This document shows positions 20,686-30,444 of a stretch of 64,000 bases of DNA, one piece after another. Under the pieces are notes generated by a model that was not told where the DNA came from, searched no databases, and saw nothing but the letters and a program-made list of their open reading frames with translations. The stretch's first letter is position 1. Every line of letters starts with the position of its first letter. The stretch comes from Robertkochia aurantiaca (GTDB taxonomy: Bacteria > Bacteroidota > Bacteroidia > Flavobacteriales > Flavobacteriaceae): assembly GCF_020166495.1 (NCBI RefSeq), contig NZ_JAINZS010000004.1, forward strand, positions 558,001-622,000, written 5' to 3'. The position numbers and the translations under genes are program-made.

Positions 20686-21705
20686 TCAGGAAGAATGCGC
20701 CCATTCATCGATCCATCTTGACAGTACCTTTACCCATTCCTGGTCATCGTTCAGACAGGGGATCACGTGAAATTCTTCTCCGCCGCGCTCTTCGAACTCC
20801 TCTTTGGCTTCCATCCCGATCTCTTCGAGGGTCTCCAAACAGTCTGAAACAAATGCAGGGGTAACAACTGCCATTTTTCGTACTCCTTTCTCGGCAAAAC
20901 CATTTACGGTCTTATCGGTATAGGGTTGAAGCCAAGGATCAATGCCAAGCCGAGACTGAAAAGAAGTGGAATAACTGTCTTCCTTCAGCTCCAGGTATTC
21001 AGCCACCCTCTTGGTGGTCATATAACACTGATGCCTGTAACAGAACTGATGTGCCGGGGAAGAACTAAAACAACATTGTCCGTCTATTTTACAATGTGAG
21101 CGGGTGATATCAGATTTTTTGATATGTCTTTCCGGCACCCCGTGATAAGAGAATAAAAGGTGCTCCCACTCTTTATCTTTCAGATGCTCGTGTATAGAAT
21201 TTGCCAGCACCCTGATATAATCATCATGATTGTAAAAGGCAGGAATGTTGGTGAAAGACATATGCGGAAAATGCTTTTGACGCAATTCTTCGGCCAGCAC
21301 CAGGATGGTCTCGGTGGTTGCCATGGCGAACTGTGGGTACAAAGGAATAAGCAATACCTCATCAACTCCCTTTTTATCCAATTCATCAAGACCTGCCTTG
21401 ATCGAAGGGTTACCGTACCTCATGGCCAGGCTCACCGGTACCGAGGTGAGATCCTGTACTTTCTCCTGCAATCTTTCGGAGAGAACGATCAAGGGAGAAC
21501 CTTCGTCCCACCAGATTTTGGAATAGGCTTCTGCCGATTTTTTTGGCCGGGTGTTGAGTATAATACCTCTCACCACAAAAGTCCTCAGCCAACCGGGTAA
21601 GTCGATCACCCGTTCATCCATGAGGAATTCATCCAAATACTTTTTAACATCCTTGGGATCAGTCGAATCAGGCGATCCAAGGTTTACGAGTAAAACTCCT
21701 TTCAT
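20686..21705 (-). CDS. hemH: ferrochelatase with an internal cysteine cluster
   Basis: A 339-residue ferrochelatase, which inserts Fe(II) into protoporphyrin IX, the final protoheme step. The catalytic His188 is in SYHGVPERH, and the acidic SDCLETLEEI motif (Glu291, Glu294) is present. Between residues 205 and 227 lie five cysteines (205, 211, 212, 222, 227) in the form C-x5-CC-x9-C-x4-C. Some bacterial ferrochelatases carry a [2Fe-2S] cluster bound by internal cysteines, and this insert is a candidate for the same. It is separated from the hem operon by ThuA and AraC genes and runs the opposite way. Confidence 0.97.
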   Translation of the reverse strand: MKGVLLVNLGSPDSTDPKDVKKYLDEFLMDERVIDLPGWLRTFVVRGIILNTRPKKSAEAYSKIWWDEGSPLIVLSERLQEKVQDLTSVPVSLAMRYGNPSIKAGLDELDKKGVDEVLLIPLYPQFAMATTETILVLAEELRQKHFPHMSFTNIPAFYNHDDYIRVLANSIHEHLKDKEWEHLLFSYHGVPERHIKKSDITRSHCKIDGQCCFSSSPAHQFCYRHQCYMTTKRVAEYLELKEDSYSTSFQSRLGIDPWLQPYTDKTVNGFAEKGVRKMAVVTPAFVSDCLETLEEIGMEAKEEFEERGGEEFHVIPCLNDDQEWVKVLSRWIDEWAHSS

Positions 21706-21804: not shown

Positions 21805-22545
21805 TTACTCCAAACACCAAAGCATACCTCCCCTAAGGTGCTGCACAAAACCGGGTTCGCTGTAGGAAGCAGCCGTGTGCCCTCCCGCAGTGTAAAAAAC
21901 CCTGGCTCCTGCCGGTTCATGATACCAGGCAATGGGATGGTCGGGGCCGTTGGTTCCTCCTTCATAAGAGCTTTCTTCCAGATTCAGCAAAGTATTCACT
22001 GAAGGATTAAAATTTTTGAAATTATACCATTCGTCTCTCCGGGTCCATGTATCATTTAAGTGGGCGGTTGCCGGGTGGTCAGGATCGACTACGGTTATGA
22101 GTGCCTCCTGTATGGAAGGGTGACTATCAAAATAAGCACCGACCAGTTCTCCGTACCAGGGCCAGTCATATTCTGTATCGGTTGCCGCATGAATCCCCAT
22201 AAAAGCTCCTCCCTGCCCGATATAATTTTCAAAGGCGGTCTGCTGTTCGTTATTGAGAATATCACCGGTAGTCGATAGAAAAATAACCAGATCGAACGAC
22301 GGGAGATCGTCTGAATTAAACACCCCTGCGTTCTCGGTATGGGTAAGCGCAATATCTTCTTCCTCTGCAAGACCCTTGAACAGGGCCACCCCGTCTGAAA
22401 TCGAGCTGTGTCTGAATCCTTCGGTTTTGGTGAAAATCAGAACCTGCTTCCGCGGATCATCCGGATCGACATTCACCTCATTCCCATCATCTCCGCAACC
22501 CCATACGAACAGCAATACAAGAAATTGCCAGTACATTTGATTCAT
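21805..22545 (-). CDS. ThuA domain lipoprotein
   Basis: A 246-residue protein with a short hydrophobic N-terminus ending in a lipobox-like VWGC, so Cys17 is probably lipidated and the protein membrane-anchored. Residues 33-245 match the ThuA/trehalose-utilisation domain, a glutamine-amidotransferase-like fold (VLIFTKTEGFRHSSI at the start, MGIHAATDTEYDWPWYGELVGA, RVFYTAGGHT near the end). ThuA proteins are tied to sugar (trehalose or glycan) use, but catalysis is not established. The start lies 2 bases after the stop of the AraC gene, so the two are co-transcribed. Confidence 0.9.
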   Translation of the reverse strand: MNQMYWQFLVLLFVWGCGDDGNEVNVDPDDPRKQVLIFTKTEGFRHSSISDGVALFKGLAEEEDIALTHTENAGVFNSDDLPSFDLVIFLSTTGDILNNEQQTAFENYIGQGGAFMGIHAATDTEYDWPWYGELVGAYFDSHPSIQEALITVVDPDHPATAHLNDTWTRRDEWYNFKNFNPSVNTLLNLEESSYEGGTNGPDHPIAWYHEPAGARVFYTAGGHTAASYSEPGFVQHLRGGMLWCLE

Positions 22546-22547
22546 AA

Positions 22548-23441
22548 TTATGCATTTAGTGATAAAAGATATTTTTTTGGGGTAGTTCCGTATTTTTTCT
22601 TGAAGGCCGAAATAAAATGACTTGAGGTACTGTATCCGACCCGGTGACCTACCTCATTCACATTATGCTCTCCGCTTTCGAGCATCTTCCGTGCAAACTC
22701 CATCTTGTAATCGAACAGAAAACTATACACCGAATCTCCATACAATTGTTTGAATCCCTCTTTGAGTTTTTTGAGATTCAACCCGATCTCTTCAGAAAGC
22801 TCCTGCAAGGTAGGCGGTTCGGCCATTCGGGAAATAACGATGTCTTTCGCCCGCTTGATACGACGCACATTGTCTTCGTCTATCAAAAAAGGACATTGTT
22901 CCACATTGGCGTCTTCAGCCTTGTTAAAGTACAGGCCCAGCAATTCATACAATTTCCCCTTAAGGTACAGATTCTTAACCGTAGGATGCAGACCATAGTT
23001 CATGATCTGACTCAGCACCACCGATATAGCAGGGTTGAAGGGCGATATGTCGTAGTATTTCCGGTCCCTGTTCTCGAGACTTAAAAATGGTATATAATCG
23101 GCTTCCATAGAGATCAGGCTATGAAATTTTTTAATGGAGATAAGCACCGAAACCACCCAGGTACCCGGATCGATATGCAAATTCATCGGAAGGTCCCGCT
23201 GCGGATTATACAATAACAGCGCATCTTCCTGTTTTACTTCAAGCTGGTAGCGCCCCTGATTAAAATGGAAAGTCATATGCCCCTTGAGACAGAAATGGAA
23301 CTGTATAAAGCTGCTGTCCACATTCTTTTCAATGCTTTGCAGCTCGTTACTGCTGTTCTGCAAACGAAGCAGCACCATATCGTCTTCAAAACACCATTCT
23401 TCAGCAACCCCTTCAGCGATATTTTTTTGAACGTCTTCCAT
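22548..23441 (-). CDS. AraC family transcriptional regulator, divergent from hemA
   Basis: A 297-residue regulator. The N-terminal half (about residues 20-190) is a cupin-like ligand or dimerisation domain. The C-terminal AraC/XylS DNA-binding domain occupies about residues 190-295, with two helix-turn-helix units (PTLQELSEEIGLNLKKLKEGF and VNEVGHRVGYSTSSHFISAFKKKYGTTPKKY). It is transcribed divergently from the heme operon across 200 bases that contain a direct repeat suited to AraC-type binding, so it is a candidate regulator of heme synthesis. A TATTTTTG box at 23527-23534 on this strand may be its own -7 element. The inducer is unknown. ThuA follows 2 bases later. Confidence 0.94.
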   Translation of the reverse strand: MEDVQKNIAEGVAEEWCFEDDMVLLRLQNSSNELQSIEKNVDSSFIQFHFCLKGHMTFHFNQGRYQLEVKQEDALLLYNPQRDLPMNLHIDPGTWVVSVLISIKKFHSLISMEADYIPFLSLENRDRKYYDISPFNPAISVVLSQIMNYGLHPTVKNLYLKGKLYELLGLYFNKAEDANVEQCPFLIDEDNVRRIKRAKDIVISRMAEPPTLQELSEEIGLNLKKLKEGFKQLYGDSVYSFLFDYKMEFARKMLESGEHNVNEVGHRVGYSTSSHFISAFKKKYGTTPKKYLLSLNA

Positions 23442-23560
23442 AAATCTCTTTCTTGTTTTTATTTAGAATCAATCTAAACTATTTGGCTCAAAAGCCTTAT
23501 AAACCCTAAATATGCCGGGATTTTACCAAAAATACTACGAAAAGAATTGCAAATCACTTT

Positions 23561-23590
23561 TAGCGTTATAAAAAGTTCCTATAGCGTTAT
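23561..23590 (+). promoter_or_regulatory. putative operator: direct repeat TAGCGTTAT, 21-base period
   Basis: TAGCGTTAT occurs at 23561-23569 and again at 23582-23590. The period of 21 bases is two helix turns, the geometry of AraC-family (and LytTR-family) sites. The proximal copy ends 20 bases before the hemA -7 box, so it covers the place of the -33 element, as in class II activation. The site is seen directly; the binding protein is inferred from the adjacent araC-type gene. Confidence 0.55.
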
Positions 23591-23610
23591 TTTTTTTTAA
23601 AGAGCCCCCG

Positions 23611-23618
23611 TAATTTTG
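23611..23618 (+). promoter_or_regulatory. -7 element of the hem operon promoter
   Basis: TAATTTTG fits TAnnTTTG. There is no TTTG at the -33 position, which is occupied by the end of the TAGCGTTAT repeat, suggesting dependence on an activator. The expected leader is about 17 bases. Confidence 0.6.
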
Positions 23619-23641
23619 GAGCCGATTTCAGAAATAACTGG

Positions 23642-24895
23642 ATGAAAGCATATAATATCTCTAAACATAACTCCTTTTATGTTGTTGGGTTGAGCTACAA
23701 GAAAGCCGATGCAGAGGTAAGGGGTAAATTCAGTTTAGGTGATCAGGCCCAGGATTCGCTGTTAAAGCAGGCTCATTCGTCGGGTATTGATGGCCTCATG
23801 GTGATTTCTACCTGTAACCGCACCGAATTATACGGGTTCGCTCAGCATCCTTACCAGCTGATTCAGCTGCTGTGTGGCAACACCAATGGTACTGTTGAAG
23901 AATTTCAAAGCGTGGGCTACGTATACAAAAACAACCACGCCATCTCTCATATCTTTAAGGTGGGTACCGGGCTGGACAGTCAGATACTCGGTGATTTCGA
24001 GATCATCTCCCAATTAAAGCAAGGATTTCTTAAGTCACGCAGCAATGAGATCGCCAACCCTTTTCTCGAGCGACTCATCAACTCGGTGATTCAGGCGAGC
24101 AAACGCATAAAGAATGAGACTGAGATCTCTTCGGGAGCCACTTCAGTCGCATTTGCATCGGTACAATACATCCTGGCCAGGGTACCCGATATTTCCAATA
24201 AGAATATCGTACTCTTCGGAACCGGTAAAATCGGAAGAAATACCTGTGAAAACCTGGTTAAACATACCGATAATGATCATATCGTACTGATCAACCGCAC
24301 CAAAGACCGTGCAGAAAAAGTAGCCGGTAAATTCAATTTGCTGGTGAAGACTTATGAGCAATTACAGGAGGAGATCGCCAAAGCCGATGTGCTTATCGTA
24401 GCCACCGGATCTCAGCGGCCTACCGTCAATAAAGACCTCATTCACACCGACAAAGACCTGTTGATTCTGGACCTGTCTATCCCTAAAAATGTCGATGACA
24501 ATGTGGAAGATCTGGCTAATGTCACTTTGGTACACCTGGACCGGCTTTCTCAGATCACCGACGAAACCCTGAAAAGGAGGGAGAAATTTATTCCCAAAGC
24601 AGAGAAGATCATTGAAGAGGTCGAGAACGACTTCAGGCAATGGCTGGAAACGCGAAAATTCGCTCCGACCATCAAGGCTCTCAAAAAGAAGTTGAAAAAC
24701 ATGAAAGATGCCGAGATCGATTTTCAACGTAAAAAGATAGATGGTTTTAATGAAGAGCAGGCCGAAGTTCTGAGCAACCGTATCATTCAAAAGATCACGA
24801 CTCACTTCGCCAATCACCTGAGGGAAAGTCCGAATTCTTCTGATGAAAGTCTGGAACTCATCAAAAAGGTATTTCAACTAGAAAACAACAAATGA
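23642..24895 (+). CDS. hemA: glutamyl-tRNA reductase
   Basis: A 417-residue NADPH-dependent enzyme that makes glutamate-1-semialdehyde from glutamyl-tRNA, the first committed and usually regulated step of C5-route tetrapyrrole synthesis. The catalytic Cys58 is in STCNRTELYG. The N-terminal catalytic domain is followed by an NADPH-binding Rossmann domain (LFGTGKIGRNT, glycines at 193, 195 and 198) and a long helical dimerisation domain from about residue 310. It is the first gene of the heme operon; its last four bases overlap the start of hemC (ATGA). hemL, needed for the next step, is not in the window. Confidence 0.98.
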   Translation: MKAYNISKHNSFYVVGLSYKKADAEVRGKFSLGDQAQDSLLKQAHSSGIDGLMVISTCNRTELYGFAQHPYQLIQLLCGNTNGTVEEFQSVGYVYKNNHAISHIFKVGTGLDSQILGDFEIISQLKQGFLKSRSNEIANPFLERLINSVIQASKRIKNETEISSGATSVAFASVQYILARVPDISNKNIVLFGTGKIGRNTCENLVKHTDNDHIVLINRTKDRAEKVAGKFNLLVKTYEQLQEEIAKADVLIVATGSQRPTVNKDLIHTDKDLLILDLSIPKNVDDNVEDLANVTLVHLDRLSQITDETLKRREKFIPKAEKIIEEVENDFRQWLETRKFAPTIKALKKKLKNMKDAEIDFQRKKIDGFNEEQAEVLSNRIIQKITTHFANHLRESPNSSDESLELIKKVFQLENNK

Positions 24896-25824
24896 ACCGA
24901 CCTATACGAATCGGAACCCGCGATAGCGAGCTCGCTATGTGGCAGGCCCGACATGTTCAAAAAAAGCTTTCAGATGCCGGTTACGACTGCGAACTGGTTC
25001 CGGTTAAATCGACCGGAGATATCGTCTTAGATAAACCTTTGTATGAGTTAGGTATCACGGGTATTTTTACCAAGACCCTCGATGTGGCCCTGCTCAATAA
25101 AGATATAGATATTGCGGTTCACAGCATGAAAGATGTGCCGACGGCACTGCCCAAAGGAATCGTACAGGCTGCGGTTCTTGAAAGAGAAGTGACCAGTGAT
25201 ATCCTGGTACATAAGGGCGACCTGAGCTTTCTCAGCAAAAAAGGCACCATCGCCACGGGAAGTCTCAGAAGGAAGGCTCAATGGCTGCATCGCTACCCAA
25301 AACATCAGGTGGAAGACCTGAGAGGAAACGTGAACAGCAGGCTGCAAAAATTAAAGGATAATTCCTGGGACGGAGCCATCTTCGCTGAAGCCGGTCTCAA
25401 ACGCATCGATCTTTTACCAAAGGAACATGAAGTGCTTGACTGGATGATCCCCGCTCCTGCACAAGGAGCCATGATGGTTGTTTGCCGGGGGGAAGACAAA
25501 GGCCTGTTCAAAGTGGTAAACAGCATCAATCACTACGATACCGAGATCTGTACGACCATAGAACGAGATTTTCTGAGAACGCTCGAAGGCGGGTGTACCG
25601 CTCCGATCGGCGCCCATGCTTATATCGACATCGATTACCTCCATTTTAAGGGGGCCCTTTTCTCCCTTGACGGAAAGAAAAAGGTCGATATCGAACAATC
25701 TGTCCTCATAGAAAACGTAGAAGGACTGGGCGTCATCAGCGCCAGGGAAATCCTTAACAACGGCGGAGCGGCTTTGATGACGAAGATCAAAAAGAAACTG
25801 GAGAAGAACGGGGTTAAACAATAG
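24892..25824 (+). CDS. hemC: hydroxymethylbilane synthase (porphobilinogen deaminase)
   Basis: A 310-residue cytosolic enzyme that joins four porphobilinogen units into hydroxymethylbilane. The N-terminus RIGTRDSELAMWQA, the catalytic Asp81 in HSMKDVP, and the dipyrromethane cofactor attachment site Cys235 in LEGGCTAPIGAHA are all present. The length is normal for the family. It overlaps hemA by four bases and precedes hemD by five bases, so it is in the middle of a tightly coupled operon. Confidence 0.98.
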   Translation: MNRPIRIGTRDSELAMWQARHVQKKLSDAGYDCELVPVKSTGDIVLDKPLYELGITGIFTKTLDVALLNKDIDIAVHSMKDVPTALPKGIVQAAVLEREVTSDILVHKGDLSFLSKKGTIATGSLRRKAQWLHRYPKHQVEDLRGNVNSRLQKLKDNSWDGAIFAEAGLKRIDLLPKEHEVLDWMIPAPAQGAMMVVCRGEDKGLFKVVNSINHYDTEICTTIERDFLRTLEGGCTAPIGAHAYIDIDYLHFKGALFSLDGKKKVDIEQSVLIENVEGLGVISAREILNNGGAALMTKIKKKLEKNGVKQ

Positions 25825-25829
25825 CTTTT

Positions 25830-26501
25830 ATGCCTGAGAATCCTCGAATACTGAGCACCAAAATTCTCAGTCCTCCACAGCAGGAAAGACTGCTTCATGC
25901 GGGGTTTTCGCTGGTTCAGCTGGCCTTTATTAAAGTGTCTCTTTCTGCCATATCAGAGCCGGTACGGGCGAAACATGCCATTCTCACCAGTAAGAATGCG
26001 GTAAAGGCGATTCAGCAAAACCGGATTATCGTTGAAAACGCCTATTGCGTGGGAGAAAAAACCGCGGCTATGACAAGCAGCCTGGGCATTCCCGTGAAAG
26101 TAGTGGCAGAAACTTCCAAAGAACTGGCCGGCATTATCGCAGAACATTACTCAGAAAACAAATACGTCTATTTTTGCGGAAATCTGCGCAGACCAGACCT
26201 TCCGCAGATACTGAGAAAAAGCAAGGTCGATTTCGATGAAGTCACCGTGTACCATACCGAAAGAGTACCCCATGAAGTCAAGGGATCTTTCGACGGCATC
26301 CTTTTTTTCAGTCCCAGCGCTGTGGAAAGTTATGCTCAAAACAATAAATTTGGTAACCCGGTTTGTTTTTCCATCGGACCTACCACTTCTGACGCCCTGA
26401 AAAATCATACCTCAAGAATTATCACCGCAAAGAAGCCATCTGCTGAACATGTCGTTCTGGAGGTGTTAAAAGAGTTTAAACCCAATATGCTAAAAAAATA
26501 A
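25830..26501 (+). CDS. hemD: uroporphyrinogen-III synthase
   Basis: A 223-residue protein with the two-domain, poorly conserved pattern of Hem[12 protein letters not shown] (about residues 51-61) in one domain and [12 protein letters not shown] (about 155-166) in the other. It cyclises hydroxymethylbilane with inversion of ring D. Sequence conservation in this family is low, so the position between hemC and hemE, five and four bases away, is strong support. The protein is slightly shorter than the E. coli enzyme, as usual in Bacteroidota. Confidence 0.93.
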
Positions 26502-26505
26502 TGTC

Positions 26506-27534
26506 ATGATAAAGAACGATCTATTTTTAAGAGCCCTGAAAGGTGAAACGGTTTCCAGACCCCCGGTCTGGATGATGCGACAAGCAGGGAGGTATCTCCC
26601 TGAATTCATGGCATTGAAAGAGAAGTACGATTTCTTCACCCGTTGCCGAACTCCGGAGCTGGCGGCTGAGATAACCGTACAACCCATTCGTATCGTAAAA
26701 CCCGATGCAGCCATACTTTTTTCTGACATCCTGGTGATCCCACAGGCTATGAATATAGATGTTGAAATGAAACCGGGCGTAGGACCCTGGTTACCATCAC
26801 CTGTGCGCACTGCTCAGGATGTGGAAAATGTGCGGGTTCCTGAGATCATGGAAACCCTGGGATACGTAATGGATGCCATTACCCTTACTAAGGAAATGCT
26901 TGAAGACGAGGTTCCCCTGATCGGTTTTGCCGGTTCCCCCTGGACCATCTTGTGCTACGCTGTTGAAGGAAAGGGATCCAAGAGCTTCGATCAGGCCAAA
27001 GGCTTTTGCTTTTCCAATCCGGAGGCCGCCCATAAGTTATTGCAAAAGATCACCGATACCACAATCGCCTATCTGAAGCAAAAAGTGGCCCATGGGGTCA
27101 ATGCCGTACAAATATTCGATTCATGGGGAGGTATGTTATCACCCGAAGATTATCGTGAATTCTCATGGAAATATATCGACCAGATCATTGAAGCCCTTGC
27201 GCCGCTCACCGAAGTGATCGTATTTGGTAAAGGGTGCTGGTTCGCCCTTCCTGAGATGGCGAAGAGCAAGGCAAGTGCACTGGGGGTTGACTGGACCTGT
27301 TCACCTGAAAAGGCACGGGAGTTTACCGGAGGAAAGATCACACTGCAGGGGAATTTTGACCCCTCCAGATTACTCACACCCGTTCCGCAACTGAAGAACA
27401 TGGTCTGGGATATGATCGACAGATTTGGAAAAGACCGCTACATGGCAAATCTGGGACATGGTATATTACCTAATATCCCTGTAGATCATGCCAAAGCGTT
27501 TATAGATGCAGTAAAGGAATACGAAAATCGCTGA
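26506..27534 (+). CDS. hemE: uroporphyrinogen decarboxylase
   Basis: A 342-residue cytosolic enzyme that converts uroporphyrinogen III to coproporphyrinogen III. The substrate-binding N-terminal motif [15 protein letters not shown] contains Arg25 and Arg29, and Asp74 in LFSDIL is the key catalytic aspartate. [19 protein letters not shown] follows near residue 140. The ATG at 26506 lies four bases after hemD; an earlier ATG at 26501 is out of frame. The stop shares a base with the DUF6973 start (TGATG), so translation is coupled. Confidence 0.98.
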
Positions 27535-28031
27535 TGAGCACAGGGAAGGTCCTTCGGTCATTACGTCCAGAGGTCGTATGGAAGACCTCCCGGTATTTCC
27601 TCACCCGCCCTGCAGGAATGCTGGCCGCCTTTTTGGCTACCCGCAGCTGCCTGAAACTGTCAGGTGAACTCTTTGGAAAAGCCCATCACAGAAATGGAAA
27701 GGCCAATGCCTTCAGGCAGGCCCTTTGGAATATGCTCATCATTAAATACAGCATGAAGATGGGTTATTCTACAGAAAGAGCGCTGAAGTGGGCCGATGAG
27801 ATCACCCTGCACCACGAAGACCTGTCTCCCAACCCACCCCTGGCCAGGATCATGGACCTGCACAATAACCGTATCGGCAGAGACCTCTGGACGGGTATCA
27901 ATTGCACCGCCTCAGACCCTGACGGGTTACTGGCAGAAAACGTCATGAACTTATTAAAATCTGCGGTCAGGGTTAGCAGTCTTGAGGATACCGGAAAGCA
28001 TCCGGAAAAATTGATTTATATTGAAGATTGA
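27534..28031 (+). CDS. DUF6973 domain protein embedded in the heme operon
   Basis: A 165-residue basic protein of the DUF6973 type, with no known function. It carries a clustered set of polar residues that looks like an active or metal site: KANAFRQALWN (Arg61, Trp65, Asn66), HHED (93-96) and MDLHNNRIGR (Asp108, His110, Asn111, Asn112). The N-terminal 45 residues are amphipathic and could associate with the membrane. Its start shares a base with the hemE stop and hemF begins two bases after its stop, so it is translated in step with heme enzymes. No signal peptide is evident. A helper role in coproporphyrinogen handling is a guess. Confidence 0.85.
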   Translation: MSTGKVLRSLRPEVVWKTSRYFLTRPAGMLAAFLATRSCLKLSGELFGKAHHRNGKANAFRQALWNMLIIKYSMKMGYSTERALKWADEITLHHEDLSPNPPLARIMDLHNNRIGRDLWTGINCTASDPDGLLAENVMNLLKSAVRVSSLEDTGKHPEKLIYIED

Positions 28032-28032
28032 A

Positions 28033-30444
<2,412 letters not shown>

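Follow-up and report, generated by a model that had tools for sequence, protein, structure and literature searches.

The window, by which we mean the whole 64,000-nucleotide stretch of DNA analysed here, carries a gene for an AraC-family regulator, hereafter araC, which is divergent to a series of heme-synthesis genes that begins with hemA. The features of the locus are listed below, with positions counted from the first letter of the window.

20686..21705, minus strand: hemH, ferrochelatase (Pfam Ferrochelatase), on the same strand as araC and downstream of it
22548..23441, minus strand: araC, AraC-family regulator of 297 aa with an HTH_18 match, divergent to hemA; Cys183-Pro184 and His107 are invariant in orthologs
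23462..23478, no strand: Fur-box palindrome TTTAGA-N5-TCTAAA, 5' of araC, the sole exact match in its own genome
23527..23534, minus strand: possible -7 box of araC, the nearest TAnnTTTG (TATTTTTG on the minus strand); uncertain
23557..23573, plus strand: distal half-site of the putative operator, C-N6-CG-N2-A, which holds TAGCGTTAT at 23561-23569
23575..23594, plus strand: proximal half-site, GTTC-N3-TAGCGTTATTTTT, which holds TAGCGTTAT at 23582-23590 and occupies the expected place of the -33 box
23611..23618, plus strand: -7 box of hemA, TAATTTTG; TAnnTTTG lies 27 bp past the start of GCGTT in 89 of 100 sequences
23642..24895, plus strand: hemA, glutamyl-tRNA reductase (TIGR01035, above cut-off)
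24892..25824, plus strand: hemC (TIGR00212, above cut-off)
25830..26501, plus strand: hemD-like gene, uroporphyrinogen-III synthase (NCBIfam matches below cut-off)
26506..27534, plus strand: hemE (TIGR01464, above cut-off)
28030..28938, plus strand: hemF, oxygen-dependent coproporphyrinogen oxidase (NF003727, above cut-off)
28904..29926, plus strand: hemB, porphobilinogen synthase (NF006762, above cut-off)

From hemA, the gene order is hemC, the hemD-like gene, hemE, an unnamed ORF, hemF and hemB. A ThuA-family gene (21805-22545 of the window) lies between araC and hemH, while in other relatives hemH is directly 3' of araC. On the same strand and at most 200 bp 3' of araC, hemH was found in 53 of 204 regulator loci, many of which are too short to tell.

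A sequence-only reading of the window had claimed that TAGCGTTAT occurs twice with a 21-base period between the divergent AraC gene and hemA, and that the proximal copy ends at the place of the -33 box, 20 bases before TAATTTTG. Both claims held. The two copies are at 23561-23569 and 23582-23590, and TAATTTTG (23611-23618) begins 20 bases past the proximal one. When the 200-bp region was shuffled by mononucleotides, a 9-mer with at least three G/C was repeated exactly at a spacing of 10-40 in 170 of 20,000 shuffles. The repeat by itself is merely mildly unusual, and it is the comparison with relatives that puts it far from chance.

The regulator was searched in the genomes of named species, which gave at least 576 relatives, and the best 80, with titles mostly of Flavobacteriaceae, were kept. 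A second search took one genome from each of 199 genera of the same family; 193 gave a match of some kind at E 0.001, a count that includes paralogs, and 30 were fetched. araC and hemA are divergent in all of the 111 first loci, which are the best-scoring ones and contain some species twice and the window's own genome twice. Merging identical intergenic regions reduced 112 entries, including that of the window, to 101 distinct regions, mostly from Flavobacteriaceae. A GCGTT core, defined as GCGTT followed by A, G or T and then by C or T, is located 5' of the hemA -7 box in 100 of the 101; the remaining region, L068, has ACGTTAT in place of the core pattern and was excluded from the columns of the 100 sequences. 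The first -7 match is found 27 bp past the start of GCGTT in 89 of the 100, at 28 bp in two and elsewhere in six, and it is absent in three. CG occurs exactly 21 bp 5' of the core in 78 of the 100, and at no other upstream offset from 5 to 59 does it occur in more than 30. Each CG is preceded by a C at a distance of 7 bp, in 89 of 100 for the distal half-site (position -28) and in 99 of 100 for the proximal one (position -7), and GTTC precedes the proximal half-site in this intergenic footprint. The conserved unit is a C-N6-CG-N2-A half-site repeated with a 21-bp period, of which the 9-mers noticed in the window are the inner part. The sequence-only reading had proposed its own check, namely that relatives sharing this gene pair should conserve the repeat. 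The site spaced at 21 bp passed that check and the exact 9-mer pair failed it; the pair was rejected as the conserved unit, because of the 101 distinct regions only that of the window has it. Since the relatives are not independent of one another, these counts are a description of the footprint and not a proof of it, and the scan of 199 genomes uses one genome per genus. A further CG is present at +38, near the start site, in 47 of 100, at a spacing that is off the 21-bp period. In several of the divergent relatives L115-L121, the presumed start site just past the hemA -7 box is overlapped by one more copy resembling TCGATACTTAT.

A matrix of 38 columns was built without the window, with a threshold of -8.6 bits that corresponds to 99% of mononucleotide shuffles. 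The main regions served to build it, and their 101 of 101 is therefore no test. The site in the window scores 40.4 bits and is the only match above 8 bits in the 64 kb. The matrix finds the site in 24 of 25 further divergent hemA regions of the same family that have the regulator, L236 being the one that has the regulator and no match. Above threshold are also 5 of 12 regions of other families with araC and hemA, where the letters differ, and 9 of 14 regions in which the regulator does not face hemA. No matrix site was found in any of 30 hemA upstream regions from genomes without an orthologous regulator. These 30 come from 29 genomes and remain from 32 such loci, L205 and L209 having no usable hemA match; 28 are from other families and only two (L112 and L124) from the same family, so that distance may explain part of the absence. 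In a test of spacing that is blind to the motif, 21 is the top value in the divergent same-family set with araC and hemA (z 5.3, n = 25) and in the corresponding set of other families (z 4.3, n = 12). It is not raised in the regulator-free hemA set (z 0.3, n = 30), nor significant in the whole 14-locus set without a facing hemA (z 1.3), where 20 scores higher. Taken one by one, only 6 of 25 sequences of the same family and 3 of 12 of other families have 21 as their best spacing. The 21-bp period persists where the letters have changed. A stricter regular expression gave no match in 26 further loci; the pattern is probably too strict and was left out of the counts.

Allowing one mismatch, the site pattern gave 119 matches in 118 of the 199 genomes, and the reversed-pattern control gave three. 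On contigs with a listed regulator, 114 of 115 matches lie at most 188 bp from it and one lies at 1.7 kb. Four matches have no listed regulator coordinate: those in genomes G002 and G003 are hemA-side sites, and those in G092 and at G050:C12 are unexplained, G050 also carrying the main site beside its regulator. In its own genome, the window's site is the sole exact match, and up to three mismatches there are 16 matches compared with 27 for the reversed-pattern control. A wider regulon in this genome has no support, the 16 weaker matches being below the control. The site is near-single-target, and the regulator looks local.

The regulator is not beside hemA in four genomes (G122, G025, G149 and G055). 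Three of these four unlinked hemA upstream regions have the site (L113, 14.9 bits; L125, 25.5 bits; L126, 9.8 bits), which begins 49-82 bp before the start. At L123 (G025), where the regulator is likewise unlinked, no promoter-proximal site was found at hemA. L125 and L126 keep the operator before a HemA that is only 28-30% identical to that of the window, with araC elsewhere. Furthermore, hemA was not found in five regulator-bearing Flavobacteriaceae (G008, G062, G106, G147 and G128), and in G048 the only match was weak and partial. The completeness of G008, G062, G106, G147, G128 and G048 is 99, 84, 95, 73, 99 and 82%, respectively, so the absence of hemA is not certain in all of them. In four of these six, G048, G062, G106 and G147, the regulator faces a TonB-dependent receptor, with sites of 27.4, 14.9, 23.6 and 20.7 bits, respectively. 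The contig ends in G008, and no divergent gene was called in G128, which has a site of 20.3 bits. Among 28 lower-scoring regulator loci, hemA is next door in 16 and not in 12. L241 has a strong site (27.9 bits) and a next called gene that resembles ribose-phosphate pyrophosphokinase, neither hemA nor a receptor; L245 has no site, and its regulator faces neither of the two. The presence of hemA in the genomes of L241 and L245 was not sought.

A receptor is likewise opposite the regulator in four loci from two other families (L163, L213, where the receptor is the second gene, L227 and L228); genome-wide absence of hemA is not part of the result for these four. Within the 14-locus set mentioned above, a receptor was recognised by Pfam or NCBIfam in L249, L253, L255, L257, L163, L213, L227 and L228, L168 has a plastocyanin-like gene opposite the regulator, and for L164-L166, L214 and L229 the grouping rests on how alike their first genes are. 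HmuY (PF14064, above cut-off) is encoded in eight of the nine receptor regions fetched, and that of L295 has no HmuY ORF. The T9SS-secreted first gene in L164/L213 was rejected as HmuY, having no HmuY match; in these loci HmuY is encoded further along. Models of B12, siderophore and hemin receptors match the receptors only below cut-off, and heme as the substrate thus rests mainly on HmuY. A relative of the regulator is retained in the small genomes of genus g247 (L223-L226), where no hemA and no TonB receptor was recognised adjoining it.

These data bear on a rival explanation, in which the footprint is owed to another conserved protein or is a sigma-factor element, with the AraC gene as a mere bystander. 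In its favour, proximity alone is no proof of binding, a promoter element could include the T-run that adjoins the proximal half-site, and most comparisons without araC are phylogenetically distant. Against it, none of 30 upstream regions without the regulator has the site; the site stays with the unlinked hemA in three of four cases, and it stays with the regulator where the search gave no full hemA match (four of four receptor loci of the family, and L258); and matches are nearly single-copy per genome, unlike those of a sigma element. We regard the bystander explanation as very unlikely. The earlier claim that the repeat is an operator of an AraC-type regulator is supported by the conservation of the 21-bp-spaced site and by the absence of that site at 30 of 30 hemA upstream regions without the regulator, 28 of them from other families, with binding itself inferred.

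The palindrome TTTAGA-N5-TCTAAA found 5' of araC is exact in 92 of the 101 regions and within one mismatch in 99, and shuffles gave no exact match. It corresponds to the Fur box ATTTAGAATTATTCTAAAT of Riemerella anatipestifer, for which EMSA showed binding of Fur to fragments with the putative box (PMC5609570); the abstract of that paper instead gives the classic E. coli-type Fur box. The box is common to both systems, but here it precedes a second-tier regulator gene rather than standing directly at iron-uptake genes, and Fur binding is inferred. The link to iron, which had only been guessed in the sequence-only reading, is supported by this palindrome. Within one mismatch and on both strands, the window's own genome has 30 palindrome matches, which do not exceed the 48 matches to the reversed control. 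One-mismatch palindromes of this genome are found near a lipoprotein gene (two copies, L265/L266) and before sdhC-like (L261), TonB receptor-like (L267) and Mrp-like (L272) genes, these likenesses being judged by eye. On the araC strand, the distance from the start of TAnnTTTG to the start of the palindrome that follows it is 38 bp in 42 of 101 regions and 24 bp in 16, and in 33 no such box precedes the palindrome. In the window, the nearest such box is at an offset of 56, which is seen once in 101; since it is at 56 and not at 38, the araC promoter of the window is uncertain. The earlier suggestion of autoregulation through the distal copy is neither supported nor excluded. Location of the palindrome downstream of the araC promoter suggests that Fur, whose action is inferred, might act there as a repressor. 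The palindrome is present within one mismatch in 1 of 14 non-hemA loci, 6 of 12 hemA loci of other families and 16 of 25 divergent hemA loci of the same family. It also occurs within one mismatch in 6 of the 30 hemA upstream regions without the regulator (L182, L190, L200, L202, L203 and L208), where shuffles predict 0.25. This suggests direct control by iron at those regulator-free promoters.

The layout expected for class II activation, with a 21-bp period and 27 bp to the -7 box, is met at hemA; activation itself is inferred, without expression data. The sequence-only reading had also read a good -7 box without a -33 box, overlapped by a direct repeat, as the layout of class II activation. 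TTG is found at the -33 place in 7 of 99 hemA promoters with the regulator and in 2 of 25 without it. The missing -33 box is not diagnostic and was rejected as proof of an activator. In a second rival explanation, the same regulator, bound to the same operator and made under low iron, would block the hemA promoter when iron is lacking for heme. In favour of such a repressor, the operator directly adjoins the promoter, the Fur box 5' of araC suggests that araC is on under low iron, and the regulator-free hemA promoters are also without TTG, so that an activator may not be needed. Against it, the regulator is opposite heme-uptake receptors in genomes without a full hemA match, where repression under heme need would make little sense; this pairing with heme uptake argues for activation. 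Moreover, the site lies on the -33 position at a fixed distance of 27 bp from the -7 box, which is the layout of AraC-type class II activators. The main doubt is about direction, since repression of araC by Fur together with activation of hemA by AraC would mean that low iron raises heme synthesis, an unusual logic. For this reason we keep the repressor role open, while considering it unlikely.

The regulator has a C-terminal DNA-binding domain of AraC/XylS type with two HTH motifs (HTH_18, E 1.8e-17, above cut-off), and it matches the fold of DNA-binding domains such as 3oio and 3lsg with a TM of 0.75-0.82 by target. The N-terminal domain is cupin-like, with predicted β-strands in 12-102 plus helices, and matches the sensor domains of AraC and BgaR with a TM of about 0.5 by target. 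Superpositions of the full-length model are poor (TM about 0.3). The AlphaFold model, which has a mean pLDDT of 80, comprises the cupin-like barrel, helices and the HTH domain. Cys183, Pro184, His107 and Glu166, along with some residues of the DNA-binding domain, are invariant in 189 of 189 distinct orthologs. None of 20 paralogs, of which two are partial ORFs, has the Cys-Pro, and one has an aligned His107. Cys-Pro was the first recognised heme regulatory motif (PMC11442138), and Cys-Pro together with the His forms a candidate heme-sensing motif. Heme binding and sensing are inferred; the inference is reasonable and remains a possibility. The linker of residues 175-187, which contains Cys183, has low confidence in the model, and a heme pocket therefore cannot be modelled. 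It could equally be, as a third rival explanation has it, that the cupin-like domain of the regulator senses not heme but iron, oxygen, a precursor or a lipid and that Cys-Pro is structural. The best-ranked fold matches, the AraC-family proteins ToxT and Rns, with several entries that have bound fatty acids, speak for this, as does the position of Cys183 within a low-confidence linker. The strict, ortholog-only conservation of Cys-Pro and His107 and the fact that recognised neighbours are mostly for heme supply speak against it. We see little to choose between this explanation and its negation.

Our preferred reading of the whole is that the repeat is the operator of an AraC-family activator of heme supply that is gated by iron through Fur, which we consider likely (probability about 0.72). 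The computation gives the footprint, its phasing, the near-single target, the way the site goes with the regulator, the pairing with heme-uptake genes at loci that lack an adjacent hemA, the conservation of Cys-Pro and His, and the Fur palindrome. Binding, activation rather than repression, heme sensing and the action of Fur are inferences, in the absence of binding or expression data. In the proposed mechanism, the repeat would be the operator of the divergent regulator, and its two half-sites, 21 bp or about two DNA turns apart, would hold two subunits side by side. With the proximal half-site at the -33 place and the -7 box 27 bp 3' of it, the regulator would recruit RNA polymerase by class II activation to the genes hemA-C-D-E-(orf)-F-B. 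It would turn this target on when heme is short, and heme binding, perhaps through Cys183-Pro184 with His107, would release or inactivate it. Iron would gate araC itself through Fur bound just 5' of the gene. The regulator would thus probably match heme supply to need, and the strict, near-single-copy operator together with the invariant Cys-Pro motif makes it a directly testable candidate heme sensor.

A bolder reading is a single joint claim with two parts. The regulator would be a heme sensor of the AraC family, common across the Flavobacteriaceae and also present in related families, and an activator with a near-single target, gated by iron through Fur and binding heme through the invariant linker Cys-Pro and His107. 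In addition, a lineage that loses heme synthesis would keep the regulator and its 21-bp operator and exchange hemA for a TonB receptor/HmuY operon. We hold this claim tentatively, the odds being slightly against its being right in all its parts. The regulator's pairing with heme uptake in genomes without a full hemA match would be a case of regulation tied to a need and not to a pathway.

The best-known counterpart is AraC at araBAD of E. coli. The araI1-I2 layout of AraC, the geometry of class II activation and the Bacteroidota -33/-7 consensus are established background. Shared with that system are the AraC-family domains, the direct-repeat half-sites 21 bp apart and the location of the proximal half-site at the upstream promoter element. 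The present system differs in its heme-supply target, its Bacteroidota -7 promoter, its half-site and probably its ligand, and there is no evidence of looping. Irr of Bradyrhizobium (PMC11442138) likewise links iron and heme status to heme synthesis and has a Cys-Pro heme regulatory motif. However, Irr is a Fur-family protein that acts on hemB, whereas here an AraC-family protein with Cys-Pro in its linker, for which heme binding is inferred, is found at hemA. No paper on this regulator was found in the open-access literature searched, subscription papers and curated regulon databases being outside the scope. The main text of a 2024 review of bacterial heme homeostasis (PMC11442138) has no occurrence of 'AraC', 'Bacteroid' or 'Flavobacter', and control of heme synthesis in Bacteroidota is likely to be little described. 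The heme-uptake systems hmuY-hmuR and hfpR-hfpY of Bacteroidota (PMC9331221) have the same types of gene that face the regulator where it is not beside hemA; the main text of that paper names no AraC-type regulator (0 occurrences of 'AraC'). As a minor observation on the uptake regions, a gene of about 230 aa, without a Pfam match in its L294 copy and membrane-like by eye, is located near the TonB receptor/HmuY genes in several lineages (L294:4736-5422, L295:3054-3749, L300:3299-4000 and L301:3116-3817).
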